DNA of 64,000 bases from Mya arenaria (Eukaryota; Mollusca; Bivalvia; Myida; Myidae). The notes under the pieces were generated by a model. It did not search any database. It was given only the letters and a program-made list of their open reading frames with translations, and was not told the DNA's origin. Position 1 is the stretch's first letter. Each line of letters opens with the position of its first letter. Positions 3,625-50,100 of the stretch are shown piece after piece. The position numbers and the translations under genes were made by a program. The stretch covers positions 32,100,678-32,164,677 of the forward strand of contig NC_069123.1 of NCBI RefSeq assembly GCF_026914265.1, read 5' to 3'.

Positions 3625-3949
3625 TTTATGCAATGCTCTTGTTTATTAGTGTACCATTTTGGCATACACAGCTATAGAAGTGAGACGCTTACGTCATAAA
3701 ATAATCAGACAAATGAGTTCTCACACAAACCATAACCTAACCAAATGACATCTGGTATGTTATTTTCTAGCTGAATATTACAATAAAACTTTGTGTTTAC
3801 TCAGGTGAAGATTCGTATTAAATGATGGGAGTAGTCTTTAATTGTTTTGATCAATTTTCATTTTGATGCCGGCAACACAAACACCATTGTAATACATAAG
3901 AAATGTGCAAACCAACTAATAAATCCATGATCTTTGGTCGAACTATTCA

Positions 3950-4775
3950 AGTAAATTAATCCGTTCTGAAAGCTACAATCTTTGGTCGAACTATTATAGA
4001 AAATGAATCAGTTCTGGAAGCAACCATCTTTGGTAGAATTATTATAGTAAATGAATCAGTTCTGGAAGCAACCATCTTTGGTAGAATTATTATAGTAAAT
4101 GAATCAGTTCTGGAAGCAACCATCTTTGGTAGAATTATTATAGTAAATGAATCAGTTCTGGAAGCAACCATCTTTGGTAGAACTATTATAGTAAATGAAT
4201 CAGTTCTGGAAGCAACCATCTTTGGTAGAACTATTATAGTAAATGAATCAGTTCTGGAAGCAACCATCTTTGGTAGAATTATTATAGTAAATGAATCAGT
4301 TCTGGAAGCAACCATCTTTGGTAGAATTATTATAGTAAATGAATCAGTTCTGGAAGCAACCATCTTTGGTAGAATTATTATAGTAAATGAATCAGTTCTG
4401 GAAGCAACCATCTTTGGTAGAATTATTATAGTAAATGAATCAGTTCTGGAAGCAACCATCTTTGGTAGAATTATTATAGTAAATAAATAAGTTCTGGAAG
4501 CAACCATCTTTGGTAGAACTATTATAGTAAATGAATCAGTTCTGGAAGCAACCATCTTTGGTAGAATTATTATAGTAAATGAATCAGTTCTGGAAGCAAC
4601 CATCTTTGGTAGAATTATTATAGTAAATGAATCAGTTCTGGAAGCAACCATCTTTGGTAGAACTATTATAGTAAATGAATCAGTTCTGGAAGCAACCATC
4701 TTTGGTAGAATTATTATAGTAAATGAATCAGTTCTGGAAGCAACCATCTTTGGTAGAATTATTATAGTAAATGAA
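3950..4775. repeat. 48-bp minisatellite, open on the minus strand
   Basis: About 17 copies of a 48-bp unit containing TTCTGGAAGCAACCATCTTT and TAGAATTATTATAG. On the minus strand the frame MVASRTDSFTIIILPK repeats without a stop for 263 codons (4747-3956). There is no evident promoter, signal peptide or homology, so I treat it as a repeat rather than a gene. Confidence 0.9.
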
Positions 4776-5260
4776 TAAGTTCTGCTAAATGTATCAGTTC
4801 TTCTGAACTTGGATCCATTTGAGTCGATATGAAGTAAACAGAATCAAATAAGAATCTATCAGACATTGTCACACAATGCAATCGTAAATAAACAGTTAAC
4901 ACATCTGAACACGACATTCTTGCATCACAATTAATTGGCTGTCAATAATATATCCATAAACATTTTATAATACAAGTTTAAAAGAAGTATGTTTGTTTAC
5001 AAAATTCCAATTCGTTAATGCCATTCCTTTATCTACCATAAGGCCCAAAAATGTCTTTGTTTCCACAAAAACCTCCAAAAAATAGGTTAGGTAGGTAGGC
5101 ATATCTTTCTTATTTCTTTTTTTTGAGAAACGAGCTTTTGTACCGAACCGACCTATATCGGGGTATATCACTATTGCAGCAAGTTTTGAATACAAAATGT
5201 AAAGAATAAAATATAAAAAGTATAATATATATTAACATGTTCACTAATATAATTCGTTTA

Positions 5261-26775: not shown

Positions 26776-28854
26776 ATGGATAGTGACCGGGAGAGTGAGA
26801 GACTGTTTTCTCTGCGGCTGTCCCAGGTGATGGAGGATATCGGTGTCAACAGACGGATGATTGAGTGGAGAAGGAACACATTTCTCAGGATTGAAACATT
26901 CAGTACTATTTGTTCGATTTTAAAGTATATACCTTTAACTGATTACGTCTTTGGTAGTCAGACTGAGGCCACAACAACTTTTTGGATGGAATCGGATCAT
27001 GACACCTTGCATAGTGACGAAAGTGTCCATGTCATTCTCCACTTGAACAAATGGCAGAAAGGAAAGCCAAATCTTTTGGTTTTAAGGGATGAGCTCACTC
27101 CTCCGCAGCACTGTTACTTACAGAGACTGAGAGGTGACGTGCCACTACCAGCAGTAAAAACAGAAGGTCCTGATGATGTGCTCATTGGTGATGGGAGAGT
27201 GTTAGTGGCCAATACATGGGTTGAATGGCACAAAGCATACAGTAGTGGTTGGTTTAAAATTACTCAACACGGACCATCAATAACTGTCAATGAAGAAGCG
27301 GACAATGTTTATGCATACCAATGTGCAGAACTACCAGAGGAATGCCAGTTCATGTTTCACAGACCACGCCCTGGACATTGGCCAAGTACAGGCATAATGG
27401 AAAGGGCCAGGGAGGCTGGAGTCTTCTTTGTACCGCAGAGCTACAGAGAGAGCCCACCTCCAAAATCATGTGAACATGAAGCATTCGTTTGTAACATTCC
27501 GTCAACATTGCTAAACTACCCTTTATCGAAATTGCAGTGGCGGTTTTCAACTACATTAATGGAAAGATATTTGATGTTTGATATAACAACTGCACAAGTG
27601 AAAGCATATACACTTACCAAACTAATAAGAAAATCTGTTTTCAAACCACTGTATGAAGATCGCTTCTGCACTTTTCATATTAAAACTGCAATGATGTATA
27701 CAATAGAAAACTATCCCCCTACAATATGGAGGGAAGACAACATTGTGCAATGTGTTAGTCTCATTCTGACTACACTTTTAAGATGGTTAAAACAAAAATA
27801 CTGTCCGCATTTTACGATTTCTGGAGTCAACCTTTTTGTTGGGAAGTTGCACAAATGGGAACTTCCTAAATTGATCGGCATTATTTCAGATTTGATCAAC
27901 TCAAAACTGCAGTGTCTGAACAATTTCAGCCATATAGGCACGAGGCTGCAACAATATAAAGGAAATGAAAAAAATATATGTCACAATATAAACATGACTC
28001 CAACTGAGTGTAATGCCTTTAGGAAAATATTGTATCTAGAAATGCAATACCTCTTGAATTGCATTCCAAAACATTTCAACGATAGCAAAGTTCATGAAAT
28101 GTTATTTCACGCAACCCTTTTAAGAATGAATTCAAATTCCTTCAGTGACATAGAACAGGAAGTAGCTTCTCTCATAAACCCATTCTTTTATAGTACCATT
28201 GCCTCCAAATTTGCCTCAATCCTCCACAGTCAACCGATTACACAGCAAATTGTCGACTGGTACAAGCTGTCAATTGAAATAATGACTGACTGTGCAGCAT
28301 TACTAGGACTAGAAGTGTGGCAGTGTTGTACACATAGTGGAAGGACGGGGTCAAAACCAAGCAATGAGCTTTGCAACAAGATGGTCTCCTTCTCAAGTAA
28401 AGAGCTGCTAACAAAATACATGATGACGTGCATTACATTTACAAAAGAAGAAATAAACTGCATTCCAAAACATCTTGCTTACGAAATGTGCAGGTGTATA
28501 GAATCTAAAGACAGACCACCTTATGAAGAGTGGAAGAACAATGTAGTCATTGACTGTATCCCATTCCTTTACTACTTACAACACCTCACGTACAGGGAAC
28601 TACATCAGCCAATAAAAGCATTTACGGCACTAGATAACCTTCTGGAGTACACCAAGGGAACACGCCATGGCCATATAGACACAGCCTTCAACATACTGGG
28701 TCACTGCTTTGAACTGCAGAACAGGCTGGACCAGGCTTGGCTGTGCTACAAGAAATCATTGAAAATTTATAACAACGACAATGCAGCCATCAGGCACTTA
28801 GCAAGAATAGTACATGAGTTTATAACAAAGACAATGCCTCCATCTGGCATGTAG
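26776..28854 (+). CDS. Mab-21 / cGAS-like receptor (cGLR) nucleotidyltransferase, single exon, 692 aa
   Basis: Member of the Mab-21/cGAS-like family, heavily expanded in bivalves. Active members sense nucleic acid and make cyclic-dinucleotide-type second messengers for STING; many molluscan members are uncharacterised. The core nucleotidyltransferase motif reads FGS at 59-61 with Glu64, then SDHD at 73-76 supplying the two metal-binding Asp. Asp176 in ADNVYAY is my candidate for the third acidic residue. The family signature HRPRPGHWP is at 195-203. The Mab-21 C-terminal helical domain follows, with the diagnostic FHIKTAMMY (300-308) and CPHFTISGVNLFVGKL (343-358). The C-terminus (about 630-681) is TPR-like: FNILGHCFELQNRLDQAW, then DNAAIRHLARIVHE. 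The ATG chosen is the first of a long uninterrupted frame. The last 11 residues (682-692) are read in a shifted phase from the first unit of the flanking minisatellite, so the native C-terminus may have been rewritten. Enzymatic activity is not proven by sequence. Confidence 0.9.
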   Translation: MDSDRESERLFSLRLSQVMEDIGVNRRMIEWRRNTFLRIETFSTICSILKYIPLTDYVFGSQTEATTTFWMESDHDTLHSDESVHVILHLNKWQKGKPNLLVLRDELTPPQHCYLQRLRGDVPLPAVKTEGPDDVLIGDGRVLVANTWVEWHKAYSSGWFKITQHGPSITVNEEADNVYAYQCAELPEECQFMFHRPRPGHWPSTGIMERAREAGVFFVPQSYRESPPPKSCEHEAFVCNIPSTLLNYPLSKLQWRFSTTLMERYLMFDITTAQVKAYTLTKLIRKSVFKPLYEDRFCTFHIKTAMMYTIENYPPTIWREDNIVQCVSLILTTLLRWLKQKYCPHFTISGVNLFVGKLHKWELPKLIGIISDLINSKLQCLNNFSHIGTRLQQYKGNEKNICHNINMTPTECNAFRKILYLEMQYLLNCIPKHFNDSKVHEMLFHATLLRMNSNSFSDIEQEVASLINPFFYSTIASKFASILHSQPITQQIVDWYKLSIEIMTDCAALLGLEVWQCCTHSGRTGSKPSNELCNKMVSFSSKELLTKYMMTCITFTKEEINCIPKHLAYEMCRCIESKDRPPYEEWKNNVVIDCIPFLYYLQHLTYRELHQPIKAFTALDNLLEYTKGTRHGHIDTAFNILGHCFELQNRLDQAWLCYKKSLKIYNNDNAAIRHLARIVHEFITKTMPPSGM

Positions 28855-31660
28855 CCAGGGTAGTACATGAGTGTATAACAAAGACAACGCTGCTATCTGG
28901 CATGTAGCCAGGGTAGTACATGAGTGTATAACAAAGACAACGCTGCTATCTGGCATGTAGCCAGGATAGTACATAAGTGTATAACAAGACAATGCCTCCA
29001 TCTGACATTTAACCAGGGTAGTACATAAGTGTATAACAAAGACAATGCCATCTGGCATGTAGCCAGGATAGTACATAAGTGTATAACAAGGACAATGCCA
29101 TCTAGCATGTAGCCAGGATAGTACATAAGTGTATAACAAAGACAACGCTGCCAGATGGCATGTAGCCAGGATAGTACATAAGTGTATAACAAAGACAATG
29201 CCTACATCTGGCATGTAGCCAGGATAGTACATAAGTGTATAACAAGGACAATGCCATCTAGCATGTAGCCAGGATAGTACATAAGTGTATAACAAAGACA
29301 ATGCCTACATCTGGCATGTAGCCAGGATAGTACATGAGTGTATAACAAGGACAATGCCATCTAGCATGTAGCCAGGATAGTACATAAGTGTATAACAAAG
29401 ACAATGCCTACATCTGGCATGTAGCCAGGATAGTACATGAGTGTATAACAAGGACAATGCCATCTAGCATGTAGCCAGGATAGTACATAAGTGTATAACA
29501 AGGACAATGCCATCTAGCATGTAGCCAGGATAGTACATAAGTGTATAACAAGGACAATGCCATCTAGCATGTAGCCAGGATAGTACATAAGTGTATAACA
29601 AAGACCATGCCTCCATCCAGCATGTAGCCAGGATAGTACATAAGTGTATAACAAAGACAACGCTGCCAGATGGCATGTAGCCAGGATAGTACATAAGTGT
29701 ATAACAAAGACAATGCCTACATCTGGCATGTAGCCAGGATAGTACATAAGTGTATAACAAGGACAATGCCATCTGGCATGTAGCCAGGATAGTACATAAG
29801 TGTATAACAAGGACAATGCCATCTGGCATGTAGCCAGGATAGTACATAAGTGTATAACAAAGACAACGCCTCCATCTGGCATGTAGCCAGGATAGTACAT
29901 AAGTGTATAACAAAGACAACGCTGCCATCTGGCATGTAGCCAGGATAGTACATAAGTGTATAACAAAGACCATGCCATCTAGCATGTAGCCAGGATAGTA
30001 CATAAGTGTATAACAAAGACAACGCTGCCATCTGGCATGTAGCCAGGATAGTACATAAGTGTATAACAAAGACAACGCCTCCATCTGGCATGTAGCCAGG
30101 ATAGTACATAAGTGTATAACAAGGACAATGCCATCTGGCATGTAGCCAGGATAGTACATAAGTGTATAACAAAGACAACGCTGCCATCTGGCATGTAGCC
30201 AGGATAGTACATAAGTGTATAACAAAGACCATGCCTCCATCTGGCATGTAGCCAGGATAGTACATAAGTGTATAACAAAGACAATGCCTACATCTGGCAT
30301 GTAGCCAGGATAGTACATAAGTGTATAACAAGGACAATGCCTCCATCTGGCATGTAGCTATGATAGTACATAAGTGTATAACAAGGACAATGCCATCTGG
30401 CATGTAGCCAGGATAGTACATAAGTGTATAACAAGGACAATGCCATCTGGCATGTAGCCAGGATAGTACATAAGTGTATAACAAAGACAATGCCATTTGG
30501 CATGTAGCCAGGATAGTACATGAGTGTATAACAAGGACAATGCCATTTGGCATGTAGCCAGGATAGTACATAAGTGTATAACAAGGACAATGCCATCTGG
30601 CATGTAGCCAGGATAGTACATGAGTGTATAACAAGGACAATGCCATTTGGCATGTAGCCAGGATAGTACATAAGTGTATAACAAGGACAATGCCATCTGG
30701 CATGTAGCCAGGATAGTACATAAGTGTATAACAAGGACAATGCCATCTGGCATGTAGCCAGGATAGTACATAAGTGTATAACAAGGACAATGCCATTTGG
30801 CATGTAGCCAGGATAGTACATGAGTGTATAACAAAGACAATGGCTCCATCTGGCATGTAGCCAGGATAGTACATAAGTGTATAACAAGGACAATGCCTCC
30901 ATCTGGCATGTAGCCAGGATAGTACATGAGTGTATAACAAAGACAACGCCTCCATCTGGCATGTAGCCAGGATAGTACATGAGTGTATAACAAAGACAAT
31001 GCCATCTAGCATGTAGCCAGGATAGTACATAAGTGTATAACAAAGACAATGCCTCCATCTGGCATGTAGCCAGGATAGTACATAAGTGTATAACAAAGAC
31101 AATGCCATCTAGCATGTAGCCAGGATAGTACATAAGTGTATAACAAAGACAATGCCTCCATCTGGCATGTAGCCAGAATAGCACATGAGTGTATAACAAA
31201 GACAATGCCTCCATCTGGCATGTAGCCAGGATAGTACATGAGTGTATAACAAAGACAATGCCATCTAGCATGTAGCCAGGAAAGTACATGAGTGTATAAC
31301 AAAGACAATGCCTCCATCTGGCATGTAGCCAGGATAGTACATGAGTGTATAACAAGGACAATGCCATCTAGCATGTAGCCAGGATAGTACATAAGTGTAT
31401 AACAAAGACAATGCCTCCATCTGGGATGTAGCCAGAATAGCACATGAGTGTATAACAAAGACAATGCCTCCATCTGGCATGTAGCCAGGATAGTACATGA
31501 GTGTATAACAAAGACAATGCCGCCATCTGGCATGTAGCCAGGATAGTACATGAGTGTATAATTTAGACAATGCCTCCATCTGGAATGTAGCCAGGATAGA
31601 ACATAAATGTAGTACAAAGACAAATTATCCATCTGGCGTGTAACCATGATAGTACATAAG
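28768..31660. repeat. Minisatellite (53/50-bp units) derived from the 3' coding end of the cGLR gene
   Basis: About fifty head-to-tail units. Unit 0 is the gene's own codons for YNNDNAAIRHLARIVHE (28768 onward, 53 bp to the next unit). Units 1 to 3 are also 53 bp and align with it base for base apart from scattered substitutions; later units are 53 bp or 50 bp, the latter lacking three bases beside the CCATCTGG segment. Degenerate units continue to about 31830, with a longer duplication of roughly 175 bp near 31660-31880. All three minus-strand frames of the unit lack stops, which explains the long apparent frames there. Confidence 0.93.
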
Positions 31661-31936
31661 TGTTTGCATTGAATTGTGTTTTTCAAGTTAACTAATGTTT
31701 AACTGACTGGAATGTAGCCAGGATAGTACATGAGTGTATAATTTAGACAATGTCTCCATCTGGAATGTAGCCAGGATAGAACATGAGTGTATAACAAAGA
31801 AAAAGCCTCTATATGGCATTAAGCCAGGACAAGTGTTTGCATTAAATTGTGTTTTTCCAGTTAACTAATGTTTAACTGATTATTATAAAATTAATGTTAG
31901 TACATACTTTTAATGCATACAAGGGAATAATTCAAT

Positions 31937-31942
31937 AATAAA
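31937..31942 (+). terminator. Candidate poly(A) signal AATAAA beyond the cGLR minisatellite
   Basis: An AATAAA hexamer follows the end of the array. If used, the cGLR 3' UTR would include the whole minisatellite. A single hexamer in AT-rich DNA is weak evidence. Confidence 0.25.
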
Positions 31943-32199
31943 GAAATCAAAGCCAGATGTTTTCGCCTGTCAAAATGATGAGGCATGTTATACATGGTGT
32001 CTTCCTTTGAAATAGTATGCCTTGGCATATGTGTATTTTGCCATATAATGTGGAAGGGACTCGAACATTGTATGAAATAGCATTTTTTTAGATTAAGTAT
32101 GGCTACTTGTTTCAAGTGTTAAAACTAATGTATTGACAGCTTGCAGCCTTCTGGAACTAACGTTTTGTGTTTGGGTCAGCTGAAAACGTTGCATATTAA

Positions 32200-38484: not shown

Positions 38485-39775
38485 AACAAGAGCTGTCACA
38501 GTATGTGACGAATGCCCCCGAATGTGACATTGACCTACGAACAAGGTCAGTACATGAAAAGTTGATCTTGCCTTTACATGTCAAATACATACGGCAAGTT
38601 ATTTTAAATTGCCTCTGAACATAAAAAAATACCACCCATACTTGACAACCTACACTGTTATGTCCTTATATTCAGAATTCCCTTGTGAATAAACACTTTC
38701 ACCTTAGAGGTAGGGACATGGGTCTTGCACACGACACGTCGTCTTCGTATGTGGAACACATGTAGCAAGTTATTTTAAAATCTGTCCATACAAGAGAAAG
38801 TTACAGCCCGGACACGACAACCTATACTCTATGTCCTTGTATGCAGCACTCCATTGTGAATAAACACTAAGTGTGACCTTGACCTTTGAGGTAGGGACAT
38901 GGGTCTTGCACGCGACACGTCGTCTTGGTATGTGGAACACATTTGGCTGTTTTTTTAAAATCTGTCCATACAAGGGAAAGTTACAGCCCGGACACGACAA
39001 CCTATACTCTATGTCCTTATATGCAGCACTCCATTGTGAATAAACACTAAGTGTGACCTTGACCTTTGAGGCAGGGACACAGGTCTTGCACGCGACACGT
39101 CGTCTTGGTATGTGGAACACATGTGGCAAGTTATTTTAAAATCTGTCCATACAAGAGAAAGTTACAGCCCGGACACGACAACCTATACTCTATGTCCTTA
39201 TATGCACTACTCCATTGTGAATAAACACTAAGTGTGACCTTGACCTTTGAGGTAGGGACACGGGTCTTGCACGCGACACTTCGTCTTGGTATGTGGAACA
39301 CATGTGGCAAGTTATTTTAAAATCTGTCCATACAAGGGAAAGTTACAGCTCGGACACGACAACCTATACTCTATGTCCTTATATGCAGCACTCCATTGTA
39401 AATAAACACTAAGTGTGACCTTGACCTTTGAGGAAGGGACACGGGTCTTGCACGCGACACGATGTCTTGGTATGTGGAACACATGTGGCAAGTTATTTTA
39501 AAATCTGTCCATACAAGAGAAAGTTACAGCCCGGACACGACAACCTATACTCTATGTCCTTATATGCAGCACTCCATTGTGAATAAACACTAAGTGTGAC
39601 CTTGACCTTTGAGGTAGGGACACGAGTCTTGCACGCCACACGTCGTCTTGGTAAGTGGAACACATGTGGCAAGTTATTTTAAAATCTGTCCATACAAGGG
39701 AAAGTTACAGAGCCGGCCGGCCGGACAGACGGACGGACGGTGCGATTTTAATATGCCCACCTTTGGGGGCATAAA
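38485..39775. mobile_element. Satellite-cored non-autonomous element, copy 1 (pearl/HINE-like)
   Basis: Begins ACAAGAGCTGTCACAGTATG followed by GAATGCCCCCGAATG, then about six 181-bp units carrying GTGTGACCTTGACCTTTGAG and TTGCACGCGACACGTCGTCT. It ends with a GGACGGACGG tract, GTGCGATTTTAATATGCCCA and GGGGGCATAAAAA. A conserved left end, a variable tandem core and a conserved right end recall bivalve pearl/CvA elements, placed by others among non-autonomous Helentrons. Family placement is by analogy. Confidence 0.72.
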
Positions 39776-44126: not shown

Positions 44127-47100
44127 CTGCAAAATAGATCAAATAAAATGCCATTGAACCTTTTAAGGGTTTAAATGTAAGACTATACACATGGCATACT
44201 ACCAAGACATTATTCTTGTTTTTGTCAATGATATGGACATGATTACATGTACCGTATTATACTACATGTATAGGATGCACTTTTGGCCCCGGAATTCAAT
44301 GAAAAAATCTTAATTTGGTTAAATAGAGAAATAAATGGAAGAAAATGTTTTTTGTACACATTTTTAACTTCAAAGGGATGCAACTCCCATTCATAGAAAG
44401 ATTTAGCTATAATGGCAGGGTAAAATCAGGTACTGTTTGTTATCCACAGATAAGAGTTGGAAACAATAGGATTGTTATAACAACCCAACCAAACTTAGCA
44501 ACTTGAACCCACCCACCCATCCCCTATTTTTGTTTCTCCTACAACTGCATGTCAGTGGAAAGTGACAAGGTTGAACATTTTAATATAGTTCCTCACCAAC
44601 CAGTGTCACTTTTCCACGATTGTTTTCATTACCACACCCACCTTACAATATCCCCTCTACTCAAACTCCTACACCTCTACAACTTGTCACCATAGCGCAA
44701 TAACTAAACAACAGCTTCTATTTCTTTATGCAGTTATTGAGTTCTCACATTAAGGTGTTGATTATTTACTGTGCATGTTTGCTGAACGCATCCATATTAA
44801 TCATGTCAGGGTAGAACATTTCAACAAAGACCAAAACCAGTGGCCCAACAATTATACCAACTTCCCAAACCCTCCATAGTTCATACATAATACCATCAAA
44901 CCATCTAACAACCCTCCATGTGTTTCTCCTACAGCAGTGCATGTCAAACAGTTGTATACATGTGTTAGTGTCAGGGTTCAAATGAATTACACACCAGAGA
45001 CTCTTAAAGGGACTAGACACCAGATGATACAAATGCAAGGGAAAACAAGAGCTGTCACAGTATGTGACGAATGCCCCCGAATGTGACATTGACCTACGAA
45101 CAAGGTCAGTACATGAAAAGTTGATCTTGCCTTTACGTGTAAAATACATATGGCAAGTTATTTTAAATTGCCTCTGAACATAAAAAAATACCACCCATAC
45201 TTGAAAACCTACACTGTTATGTCCTTATATTCAGAATTCCCTTGTGAATAAACACTTAGTGTATCTTTCACCTTAGAGGTAGGGACATGGGTCTTGCACG
45301 CGACACGTCGTCTTGGTATGTGGAACACATGTGGCAAGTTATTTTAAAATCTGTCCATACAAGAGAAAGTTACAGCCCGGACACGACAACCTATACTCTA
45401 TGTCCTTATATGCAGCACTCCATTGTGAATAAACACTAAGTGTGACCTTGACCTTGGAGGTAGGGACACAGGTTTTGCACACGACACGTCGTCTTGGTAT
45501 GTGGAACACATGTGGCAAGTTATTTTAAAATCTGTCCATACAAGGGAAAGTTACAGCCCGGACACAACAATCTATACTCTATGTCCTTATATGCAGCACT
45601 CCATTGTGAATGAACACTAAGTGTGACCTTGACCTTTGAGGTAGGGACACAGGTCTTGCACGCGACACGTCGTCTTGGTATGTGGAACACATGTGGCAAG
45701 TTATTTTAAAATCTGTCCATACAAGGGAAAGTTACAGCCCGGACACGACAACCTATACTCTATGTCCTTATATGCAGCACTCCATTGTGAATAAACACTA
45801 AGTGTGACCTTGACCTTTGAGGTAGGGACACGGGTCTTGCACGCGACACGTCGTCTTGGTATGTGGTACACATGTAGCAAGTTATTTTAAAATCTGTCAA
45901 TACAAGAGAAAGTTACAGCCCGGACACGACAACCTATACTCTATGTCCTTATATGCAGCACTCCATTGTGAATAAACACTAAGTGTGACCTTGACCTTTG
46001 AGGTAGGGACACGGGTCTTGCACGCGACACGTCGTCTTGGTATGTGGAACACATGTGGCAAGTTATTTTAAAATCTGTCCATACAAGGGAAAGTTACAGC
46101 CTGGACACGATAACCTATACTCTATGTCCTTATATGCAGCACTCCATTGTGAATAAACACTAAGTGTGACCTTGACCTTTGAGGTAGGGACACGGGTCTT
46201 GCACGCGACACGTCGTCTTGGTATGTGGTACACATGTAGCAAGTTATTTTAAAATCTGTCAATACAAGAGAAAGTTACAGCCCGGACATGACAACCTATA
46301 CTCTATGTCCTTATATGCAGCACTCCATTGTGAAGAAACACTAAGTGTGACCTTGACCTTTGAGGTAGGGACATGGGTCTTGCACGCGACACGTCGTCTT
46401 GGTATGTGGAACACATGTGGCAAGTTATTTTAAAATCTGTCCATACAAGGGAAAGTTACAGCCCGGACACGACAACCTATACTCTATGTCCTTATATGCA
46501 GCACTCCATTGTGAATAAACACTAAGTGTGACCTTGACCTTTGAGGTAGGGACACGGGTCTTGCACGCGACACGTCGTCTTGGTATGTGGTACACATGTG
46601 GCAAGTTATTTTAAAATCTGTCTATACAGGAGAAAGTTACAGCCCGGACACCACAACCTATACTCTTATATTCTTATATGCAGCACTCCATTGTGAATAA
46701 ACACTAAGTGTGACCTTGACCTTTAAGGTAGGGACACAAGTCTTGCACGCGACACGTCGTCTTGGTATGTGGAACACATGTGGCAAGTTATTTTAAAATC
46801 TGTCCATACAAGGGAAAGTTACAGCCCGGACACGACAACCTATACTTTATGTCCTTATATGCAGCACTCCATTGTGAATAAACACTAAGTGTGACCTTGA
46901 CCTTTGAGGTAGGGACACGGGTCTTGCACGCGACACGTCGTCTTGGTATGTGGTACACATGTAGCAAGTTATTTTAAAATCTGTCAATACAAGAGAAAGT
47001 TACAGCCCGGACACGACAACCTATACTCTATGTCCTTATATGCAGCACCCCATTGTGAATAAACACTAAGTGTGACCTTGACCTTTGAGGTAGGGACACG

Positions 47101-50100
47101 GGTCTTGCACCCGACATGTCGTCTTGGTATGTGGAACACATGTGGCAAGTTATTTTAAAATCTGTCCATACAAGGGAAAGTTACAGCCCGGACACGACAA
47201 CCTATACTCTATGTCCTTATATGCAGCACTCCATTGTGAATAAACACTAAGTGTGACCTTGACCTTTGAGGTTGGGACACGGGTCTTGCATGCGACACGT
47301 CGTCTTGGTATGTGGTACACATGTGGCAAGTTATTTTAAAATCTGTCTATACAAGAGAAAGTTACAGCCCGGACACGACAACCTATACTCTTATGTTCTT
47401 ATATGCAGCACTCCATTGTGAATAAACACTAAGTGTGACCTTGACCTTTAAGGTAGGGACACGAGTCTTGCATGCCACACGTCGTCTTGGTATGTGGAAC
47501 ACATGTGGCAAGTTATTTTAAAATCTGTCCATACAAGGGAAAGTTACAGAGCCGGACGGACGGACGGATGGTGCGATTTTAATATGCCCACCTTCGGGGG
47601 CATAAAAAGAAAATTGTCAAAAACTTATGGTACATAAAAATTACATCGTTGTGTACAATGCATTGAATCTTACTTACTGATGTATCACATGGATTACCAC
47701 ACATGTATTTTACGCAGTTTTTGCATATTTTTCCAATTGGAAATTTACTTGGTTTCTAAATTTAAAATATAGCTTTGATATATATATCTGCACTAATCAT
47801 GTGACTTTCACATGCTAAATATACACACTATAAACTAGGAAACCATTATACCATTATTTTCAGCTGAGACAGCGACAAAATATTGTTTTAATCATGCAGG
47901 GCTTTTTCACCCAAAATTGTGAAGAGGCCTAGCCTTTTCATTTTGGGAAATTTAAACGCGTGAAATTCTGCAAATTGGGAAAATGCGTAAACGTCTCAAA
48001 ATGGGAAATTGATAACAATATAATTTTATGGACTACTTGGTCCTCGATTAACGTTTAAATTATTCAGCATTCTTCTTATATCAACTTAAAAGATAAAAAG
48101 AATAATTTGCTCAAACAGAATAAATTTTTATTGTAAATTTTTGAAGTAAGATCTTCCTTATTGGGAAAAATATCTGGGAATTGTGAAAAAAATATCTGGA
48201 AATTGGAAAAATATGCCATTTTTGCCAATTGTGAAGTAGCCTAATTTCGGCCCCTAGCAAAGAAGGTGAAAAAGCCCTTTCATGTAAAATGATGTATTAT
48301 CTGCCTTACATTAGTTCATATTAATATAATTCTAGGCTTGTTTTGAGGAAATACTGTATTTGCTAATTTTGGTACCATCTTGTGTCTAGTCCTTTTAAAA
48401 AACCTTCCTCAACCCCATCCATGCCCCCCTCCCCGACCCACTTATCCCAATACCTGCATTCCTTCTACAACTGTGCATGTCAGCCAGCTGTATCCACGTG
48501 TTAGTGTCAGGGTTGTACATTTCTACAGAATTGCGCACCAGTGGTCCATCATGGCCTCCGACGGCATATAATACTCCATCAATCACACCCACACCTAAAT
48601 AATTCACAATATATTTTTTTTCTACTTGCAAGATGTCATATACATGTATAATATTGGTAAAATACATTGCTCTTCATTATACAATAGGTAATCATCTCAC
48701 GAGTAAATATCTTCTAAATCATTTTACCAGTTAATTTTTCGCTATGCATATATGTGAATTGTTAAATGTTTTAAAATCAATCTATATAATAATCATTTTT
48801 GTCAATGAATGTGTGCTTGATTTTAGAACAGGTTACCAGGTATCATTAACAGATACATATAGTTTTAGGATTATTGCACTTGTAAAAGAAGTTTTAAAAC
48901 ATAATTAAACTGCATTTCTTAGTCTCGGGTCTCAAACCTTGCCATATTCTTTTTTAATCTCATCCTACCTGCCCCACTCCGTCTACAGGACATCTCCGCC
49001 ACCATACACCATGTATCGTCATTTGGATTGTAACGCTCCACTGAGCTTAAACATTGCCGTGACGAACCATCGTAACCTCCGACAGCGTAGACAAAACCTG
49101 TAAACAAGATAATAATAGTCCATGCAAATTATGATTGATAAGATATTATGATATAACAAAGGGATATTGGATTGGTAATGGTTTTTTCATAAGTTGTTTA
49201 CAATCTTCCAGTCCAATCCTATGTTTTGATATTGTACATATGACCTTGCATACTTTGTATGTTTCTTTCAATAGTAAAATATGTTTAAAGTGTCACTCTT
49301 ATTCAAAATCAATACAAACACATGTATAACAAACATCAATTTTGACTGATAAACCTTAAACTACTTACTAGATAATGCATTTATGGAAACAATTTATAAT
49401 TAATAACAAGATTGTAACTGTGTATGTAACAGCAGAAAGCGGGAAAAATATTAAATGATTGGTGAATGCTAAAAGATTAACTGTGGGCTACTATAGTCTC
49501 ATAAGGTAGGAAGACTGTGTTTTATGCTCTTTTCTTTCAAATCAAACTAGGTATCCTTCATAAGAACTATGGTTTTCGAAATCTATTAATCCATTTTGGA
49601 ATATTAAAACAAAAATATTATTAATTGTGGTAAATCTTATATAGGAGTTAGAGTGCATCTTTAAACCAATGGTGATATATAAATACTAATGAGAACAGTA
49701 TTTGGAGTCAAATGTATTGGGTTTGGTGCCACATTCTTTGTATTTCGTTTATGTCGAATGTTCATTTCTCAAAGCAAATTCCCGCGGTCCCAACTTGGAC
49801 ATGATGATGATGGGTTTCGTCTGTGGGTAAGTATGGATTTTTGGCCATCATTAGCATAACCATGATTATCATGATAGTTAAACAGATGGACAAACAGATG
49901 TTCACACTATCTACTCCTTGATTTGTACTTACCATTGAGAACGCCAACACCAACACTACTGCGACGAGTGCTCAGAGGCGATATCAATCTCCACTCTCCA
50001 CTATGGACATCAAAACACTCTGCCGTATTCAACCCTGAAAAACAAACATATACAAAGATATTGAATAATATATGCCGATCATCACTTCAAATAGAACACT

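Follow-up and report, generated by a model that had tools for sequence, protein, structure and literature searches.

Several genes are known to carry tandem repeats at or near their ends. Human SLC6A3/DAT1 has a variable number tandem repeat (VNTR), a minisatellite, in its 3' untranslated region (3' UTR), and the minisatellite of PRDM9 lies in the last part of the gene. In the last exon of the carboxyl ester lipase (CEL) gene frame shifts within a VNTR lead to an aberrant C-terminus and an early stop, as outlined for CEL-MODY (PMC8692231). Here we describe a minisatellite that begins within the coding end of a Mab-21/cGAS-like gene of the bivalve Mya arenaria. Bivalves are rich in cGAS-like receptors (cGLRs), some species having over 200 cGLR proteins according to the summary of PMC9980059. 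The locus was studied in a stretch of 64,000 nucleotides (C2:32100678-32164677 of the assembly), referred to below as the window.

The comparison of the gene with its relatives makes it likely that a founding duplication of 53 bp gave the gene a new tail and a new stop codon, and that the array grew later and neutrally behind this stop. In the ancestor of a clade of genes on contig C2, the last inherited coding segment would have been duplicated in tandem. Since 53 cannot be divided by three, the second copy is translated in another frame, in which a TAG latent in the words CAT TTA GCC is met, and about 11 residues took the place of the old C-terminus. In the DNA the remaining copies lie untranslated behind the stop and ahead of a shared poly(A)-signal block, presumably within the transcript. 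Past the stop they are free of coding constraint, and slippage or unequal exchange probably increased their number. This multiplication was apparently separate in three paralogues (56 units in the window, about 113 in L051 and about 49 in L052, partial units included), and the coding unit 0 would meanwhile have stayed under purifying selection. In the sister clade a separate terminal duplication, also out of frame, seems to have taken place, here with about 166 bp as the unit.

The coding end and its first copy

The minisatellite extends from 28768 to 31664 on the plus strand and consists of 56 consecutive units in a wraparound segmentation (28768-31663 according to Tandem Repeats Finder, TRF). 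Its units of 50-55 bp are arranged head to tail and fall in the range typical of minisatellites (about 10-100 bp): 30 are of 53 bp, 24 of 50 bp, one of 52 bp and one of 55 bp, representing 33 distinct sequences. Mean pairwise identity without unit 0 was 0.904, far above chance. An earlier interpretation made from the letters of this DNA only (the sequence-only reading) had given roughly 50 copies; the long array is present, and the exact count is 56. Unit 0 (28768-28820) is the inherited coding end of the gene, YNNDNAAIRHLARIVHE plus two nucleotides, and units 1-55, of the 53- and 50-bp types, occupy 28821-31664. As that reading stated, later units can still be translated in the matching frame, unit 2 (28874-28926) giving YNKDNAAIWHVARVVHE. 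On the minus strand the region 28768-31698 contains many long open frames of up to 463 amino acids (aa). These were rejected as a translated antisense gene, being a by-product of the small number of antisense stops in any frame.

The genome (an assembly of 1,216,080,610 bases in 18 contigs) was searched with the window gene and 64 of 880 candidates were scored; loci were picked by similarity and not randomly, and locus counts do not represent independent events, L014/L015 and L002/L003 being near duplicates. A homologous coding segment (such as DRDNVSIWHAARIL) is present in 19 paralogues outside the C2 clade, none of which ends in the tail of the window gene, FITKTMPPSGM. Instead they end in HQFLQS*, HQFLSN*, HQFLNS*, HQFL*, NQFLQS*, SRYPH*, HWVFM*, HQVFM*, GQFSY* or YKFLHS*. 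A twentieth non-C2 locus, L006, breaks before its end and was excluded from the counts of ends and terminal repeats. Seven distant Mab-21 genes, which share 30-42% identity with the window protein, all stop 7-19 residues after NNAA.WH[IV], and the window tail is absent from all seven. In a rooted tree of 35 genes, which leaves out L013, L014 and L015, the C2 clade (support 75) is sister to the non-C2 clade (100) within a group of 28 genes (99); the split recurs in an unrooted tree of 31 genes, where the placement of L004 has a support of 60. The ends of paralogues and outgroup genes, taken together with the tree, indicate that the unit 0 segment is the old coding end and that the array is derived. 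The origin from coding DNA proposed in the sequence-only reading is thereby upheld, and the comparison of C-termini that it suggested came out in its favour, the array-less relatives lacking the tail in 19 of 19 and 7 of 7 cases.

The gene exits unit 0 with two bases left and then reads FITKTMPPSGM from unit 1 up to the stop TAG at 28852-28854; tail and stop together cover 28819-28854. The TAG thus lies where it had been predicted, inside unit 1 and after the loss of frame. The coding sequence had also been taken to end as unit 0, which is indeed coding, but so are the first 31 nucleotides of unit 1. Comparable tails were recognisable in eight of the ten other C2 loci: CISKTMLPSCW (twice), CIRKTMSPSGM, YITKTMLPSGM, YITKTTPPFGM, CITKTTPPSGM, YIKNTTPPSGMLQLK and YVKNTTPPSGTLQLK. 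Because seven of these eight loci have just about 3-7 units, the tail predates the long arrays. The idea of a satellite-made tail is therefore partly right: the tail is new and comes from an out-of-frame copy of the unit, but it was apparently the founding duplication that made it, before the array grew.

The latent TAG is found in the shifted frame of the coding words CAT TTA GCC (His-Leu-Ala) in C2 genes. When a second, out-of-frame copy of each gene's own segment was simulated, a stop was reached after 11 residues in the window gene, L002, L005, L052 and L053, and immediately in L008 and L054, where the first codon is different. Among 16 non-C2 segments treated in the same way two (L010 and L058) stop after 11 residues and 14 run further. 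Locus L051 has lost unit 0, so that ...CYRNS is directly followed by array sequence (TGG TAG) in the coding frame; it additionally carries frame changes and an insertion. It is a relic gene, yet it illustrates how the edge of an array can reach the protein. The suggestion that changes in repeat number could alter the tail would accordingly hold for events at the 5' edge, as in the broken L051, but not for changes behind the stop.

Terminal repeats in the sister clade

A copy of the last stretch of the gene also follows the gene, out of frame and with a unit of about 166 bp, in 17 of the 19 testable non-C2 loci (L007, L009-L020 and L058-L061, on C3, C7, C8, C11, C13 and C17). The spacing of the copies is 166-167 bp in nine loci and 143, 151 or 155 bp in eight; L062 and L063 have no terminal repeat. 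In L058 and L059 the second copy provides the stop TGA through an out-of-frame CAC ATT GAC, and in the other repeat-bearing non-C2 loci TGA, TAG or TAA stands directly ahead of copy 2. Out of 26 genes without known breaks (7 C2 and 19 non-C2, a count that excludes L006 and the broken L051, L052, L053 and L055), 24 have a repeat that starts in the last 160 or so coding bp, and none has a repeat inside the preceding 1.4-1.5 kb. The repeats found behind the stop in some outgroup genes (L064-L067) start at or after the stop, that of L067 10 bp before it.

It might be thought that these observations reflect a recurrent, perhaps selected, renewal of the C-terminus by out-of-frame terminal duplication, which would have occurred separately in the two sister clades with units of 53 and about 166 bp, the second copy being able to provide tail and stop codon alike and the surplus copies remaining in the 3' UTR, where their length may tune expression. 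We consider this doubtful. The terminal position of the repeats can be explained by selection alone, in that duplications survive only where the gene is left unbroken.

Growth of the arrays and their position behind the stop

Most C2 arrays are short, with three units in L002 and L003, four in L053, five in L005, seven in L008 and L054, three plus two in L055 and degenerate units in L004. In the three long arrays mean unit identity is 0.904-0.909 within and 0.867-0.885 between arrays, and the best match of a unit lies in its own array for 52 of 55 units of the window, 85 of 110 of L051 and 32 of 46 of L052. Unit lengths differ too: units of 50 bp number 24 in the window, one in L051 and none in L052, those of 52 bp one, 19 and none, and those of 54 bp none, none and 16. 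The three carriers are not mutual closest relatives in the rooted tree. On the simplest reading the long arrays apparently grew later and separately in the three loci. One of the three genes with long arrays and six of the eight with short arrays are intact, too few for a link to be claimed. A stem, CTGGC-N3-7-GCCAG, occurs in the long arrays in 32 of 56, 67 of 111 and 35 of 47 units, but short arrays seldom have it (3 of 12 in L055, where non-repeat segments were counted too); it was given no weight as a conserved element, since the units of long arrays share recent ancestry. The window array is followed by a flank insertion with trailing degenerate units (31665-31829; TRF, segmentation and flank duplicate). 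The 3' flank is directly duplicated over 49 bp (31658-31706 and 31831-31879, 96% identity) on either side of the trailing units, two or three of which come in addition to the array.

Past the array lies a poly(A)-signal block (31918-32003, plus strand) with AATAAA at 31937-31942, which is 80-89% identical in eight of the ten other C2 loci. Seven of these eight retain AATAAA and L004 has TATAAA. The block was not found within about 760 bp past the array of L051, and the sequence of L053 covers just about 170 bp beyond its units. From the stop to 31937 the window has no AATAAA, with ATTAAA at 31841 and TATAAA at 31884; the array lies between the stop at 28854 and the AATAAA at 31937. Because the shared block lies past it, the array probably sits in a 3' UTR that has been lengthened from 0.24-0.48 to 3.1 kb: stop and signal are 3083 bp apart in the window, and the homologous signal follows the stop at 243-479 bp in six intact paralogues (L002, L003, L004, L005, L008 and L054), three of which have an earlier AATAAA too (about 270 bp in L002 and L003, 103 bp in L004).

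An array in this position might be a functional 3' UTR element that tunes expression, either through a factor bound by its units or through the greater length of the 3' UTR. The gene is intact and constrained, with ratios of non-synonymous to synonymous substitution rates (dN/dS) of 0.56, 0.53, 0.55 and 0.50 against L002, L005, L008 and L004. We nevertheless regard such a role as improbable. The folding of four units (209 nt) does not surpass that of shuffled sequences (z 0.01; equalled or exceeded by 93 of 200 shuffles) and gives no sign of a conserved RNA structure, unit number varies from 3 to about 113 among paralogues of this single assembly, and two of the three long arrays stand behind broken genes. 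Most likely the window array is a neutral 3' UTR minisatellite from which the protein can be reached only through events at the 5' edge.

Even less probable is an origin of the copies as relics of a longer, once translated in-frame TPR array that was ended by loss of frame. The copied segments do lie at weak TPR matches, and the second copies in L058 and L060 are partly still in the frame of the gene, but none of the spacings (53 bp in the C2 clade; 166-167, 143, 151 and 155 bp outside it) is a multiple of three, and all seven outgroup genes end shortly after the segment.

Genome searches for the unit, whose match counts are lower bounds, gave at least 75 matches with the array DNA, all 75 of them on C2, and at least 87 with a query including unit 0. 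The latter comprised the 75 on C2 and 12 single matches of 38-62 bp on C7, C11, C13 and C17, nine of them inside the coding ends of paralogues and one, on C13, directly downstream of such a gene; the other two (C7:34940126 and C11:65658272) are outside the scored paralogue list. Every unit site on C2 is behind a paralogue and in the orientation of the gene, at 11 loci including the window. No unit array was found in these searches away from the C2 gene clade; the sequence-only reading would have been contradicted by an array elsewhere without the gene, and none appeared. A dispersal of the Helentron type is likewise not seen, and the confinement of array matches to positions behind C2 paralogues gives no support to a mobile-element origin. 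It is highly improbable that a minisatellite already present, or carried in by a mobile element, was taken over as the 3' end of the gene: Helentron elements carry satellite-like repeats in oysters (outlined in PMC7492417) and the window is rich in tandem arrays, but the unit was found only behind this C2 gene clade and the source segment is coding in array-less genes. An array beside a gene is not rare in the window; chance is excluded because the unit has coding homology, not because the array adjoins a gene.

Several points weigh against the scenario of a founding duplication with later growth. In L004 the tail has diverged and the units are degenerate, L051 has lost the tail, and the C2 clade is only moderately supported (75 in the rooted tree, 60 for L004 with the rest). 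The ends were compared among paralogues of one genome rather than with orthologues of other species, and the position in the 3' UTR is read from DNA, not from RNA. A better match in another array was seen for 25 of 110 units of L051 and 14 of 46 of L052 (three in the window); an old long array that later shrank in most paralogues would be a less simple alternative. Finally, 9-10 further degenerate copies obscure the exact first breakpoints.

Other repeats of the window include two separate arrays at 38701-39710 and 45206-47557, apparently of one 181-bp unit (5.6 and 13 copies), and a 48-bp array at 3930-4784 (17.8 copies, 97% matches). The length of 48 bp is a multiple of three, and this array has long open frames on both strands (295 and 176 aa).

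The host gene and comparison with known systems

The gene (26776-28854, plus strand) is a single unbroken frame of 692 codons and a stop, and its paralogues align from residue 1. Its product matches Mab-21_C at 5e-11, with TPR matches under the curated cut-off. Genome-wide there are at least 150 Mab-21_C matches (150 of 454 candidates scored), a very large cGAS-like family; no relative of the gene was matched in viral contigs. The best solved relative by sequence (phmmer) is cGAS-like receptor 1 (8gjy, E 1.5e-4), and cGAS chains are found at about 1e-3. The rule for cGLRs outlined in PMC9980059 comprises a G[S/G] motif, [E/D]h[E/D] and a third acid 50-90 residues on. The activation-loop motif is present (G60 S61, invariant in 18 aligned paralogues). 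The acids D74 and D76 are invariant in 18 sequences, but the residue between them, H75, is not hydrophobic (T, I, L, V or F in paralogues), and the strict motif fails. D176, a third-acid candidate kept in at least 90% of the 18, is 99 residues after D76 rather than 50-90, and D133 and D134 fall within that range as candidate acids only. The designation cGAS-like is therefore appropriate at the family level (Mab-21_C), while the strict published cGLR motif is not that of the window gene. The predicted structure was of too low quality to serve for a fold search (mean predicted local distance difference test, pLDDT, 43.7; predicted template modelling score, pTM, 0.33), with the last helix modelled at 669-686. 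The consensus of the 18 aligned paralogues holds about 30 residues near 500-510 (a TPR-like stretch by RLKFASMLYCRGQYEEAAEVL) that the window protein lacks.

Against L002 and L005, the proportions of non-synonymous differences (pN) at residues 641-681 were 0.05 and 0.09 and those of synonymous differences (pS) 0.37 and 0.45; pN at residues 361-640 was 0.30 and 0.29. The selection estimates omit the final codon and take L054 from an internal Met onwards; the comparison of the tail, covering 10 codons, is uninformative. The close pairs L002/L003 and L008/L054 gave dN/dS of 0.86 and 1.00, which may reflect relaxed or diversifying selection after duplication.

A search of titles and abstract openings, with few subscription journals, gave among the matches listed no account of the unit array or of such tails. 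The locus allows a minisatellite to be traced back to its birth, as one genome still contains the coding copy together with paralogues of few units and the three long arrays. It also shows a simple route to a new C-terminus and stop, in which a latent stop is exposed by a tandem duplication of a length that cannot be divided by three. Since the sister clade took this route with a different unit, it can be put to the test whether C-termini are repeatedly renewed in this fast-growing family of cGAS-like genes.

SLC6A3/DAT1 resembles the clam locus in having its minisatellite in a 3' UTR; we know of no coding source of that VNTR, whereas the clam source unit is still in place. As in the cGLR expansions of bivalves, the family concerned is a very large Mab-21/cGAS-like one; PMC9980059 in its main lines treats enzymes and numbers, not gene ends, and the window gene misses the strict motif. 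Tandem arrays in a bivalve genome are also described for the Helentron satellite DNA of oysters, but those are dispersed by mobile elements in the outline given by PMC7492417, and the searches for the clam unit place it behind a single clade of genes only. PRDM9 likewise has a minisatellite of coding units; these are summarised as in-frame zinc fingers under selection (PMC3890296), whereas the clam copies left the frame immediately. The CEL VNTR, too, is a tandem repeat at a gene end where a frame shift changes the C-terminus and stop. The CEL repeats are of 33 bp, in frame and translated, and shifts are outlined as rare disease alleles (PMC8692231); the clam unit is of 53 bp, translation covers no more than its beginning, and a whole clade of genes normally has the shifted tail.

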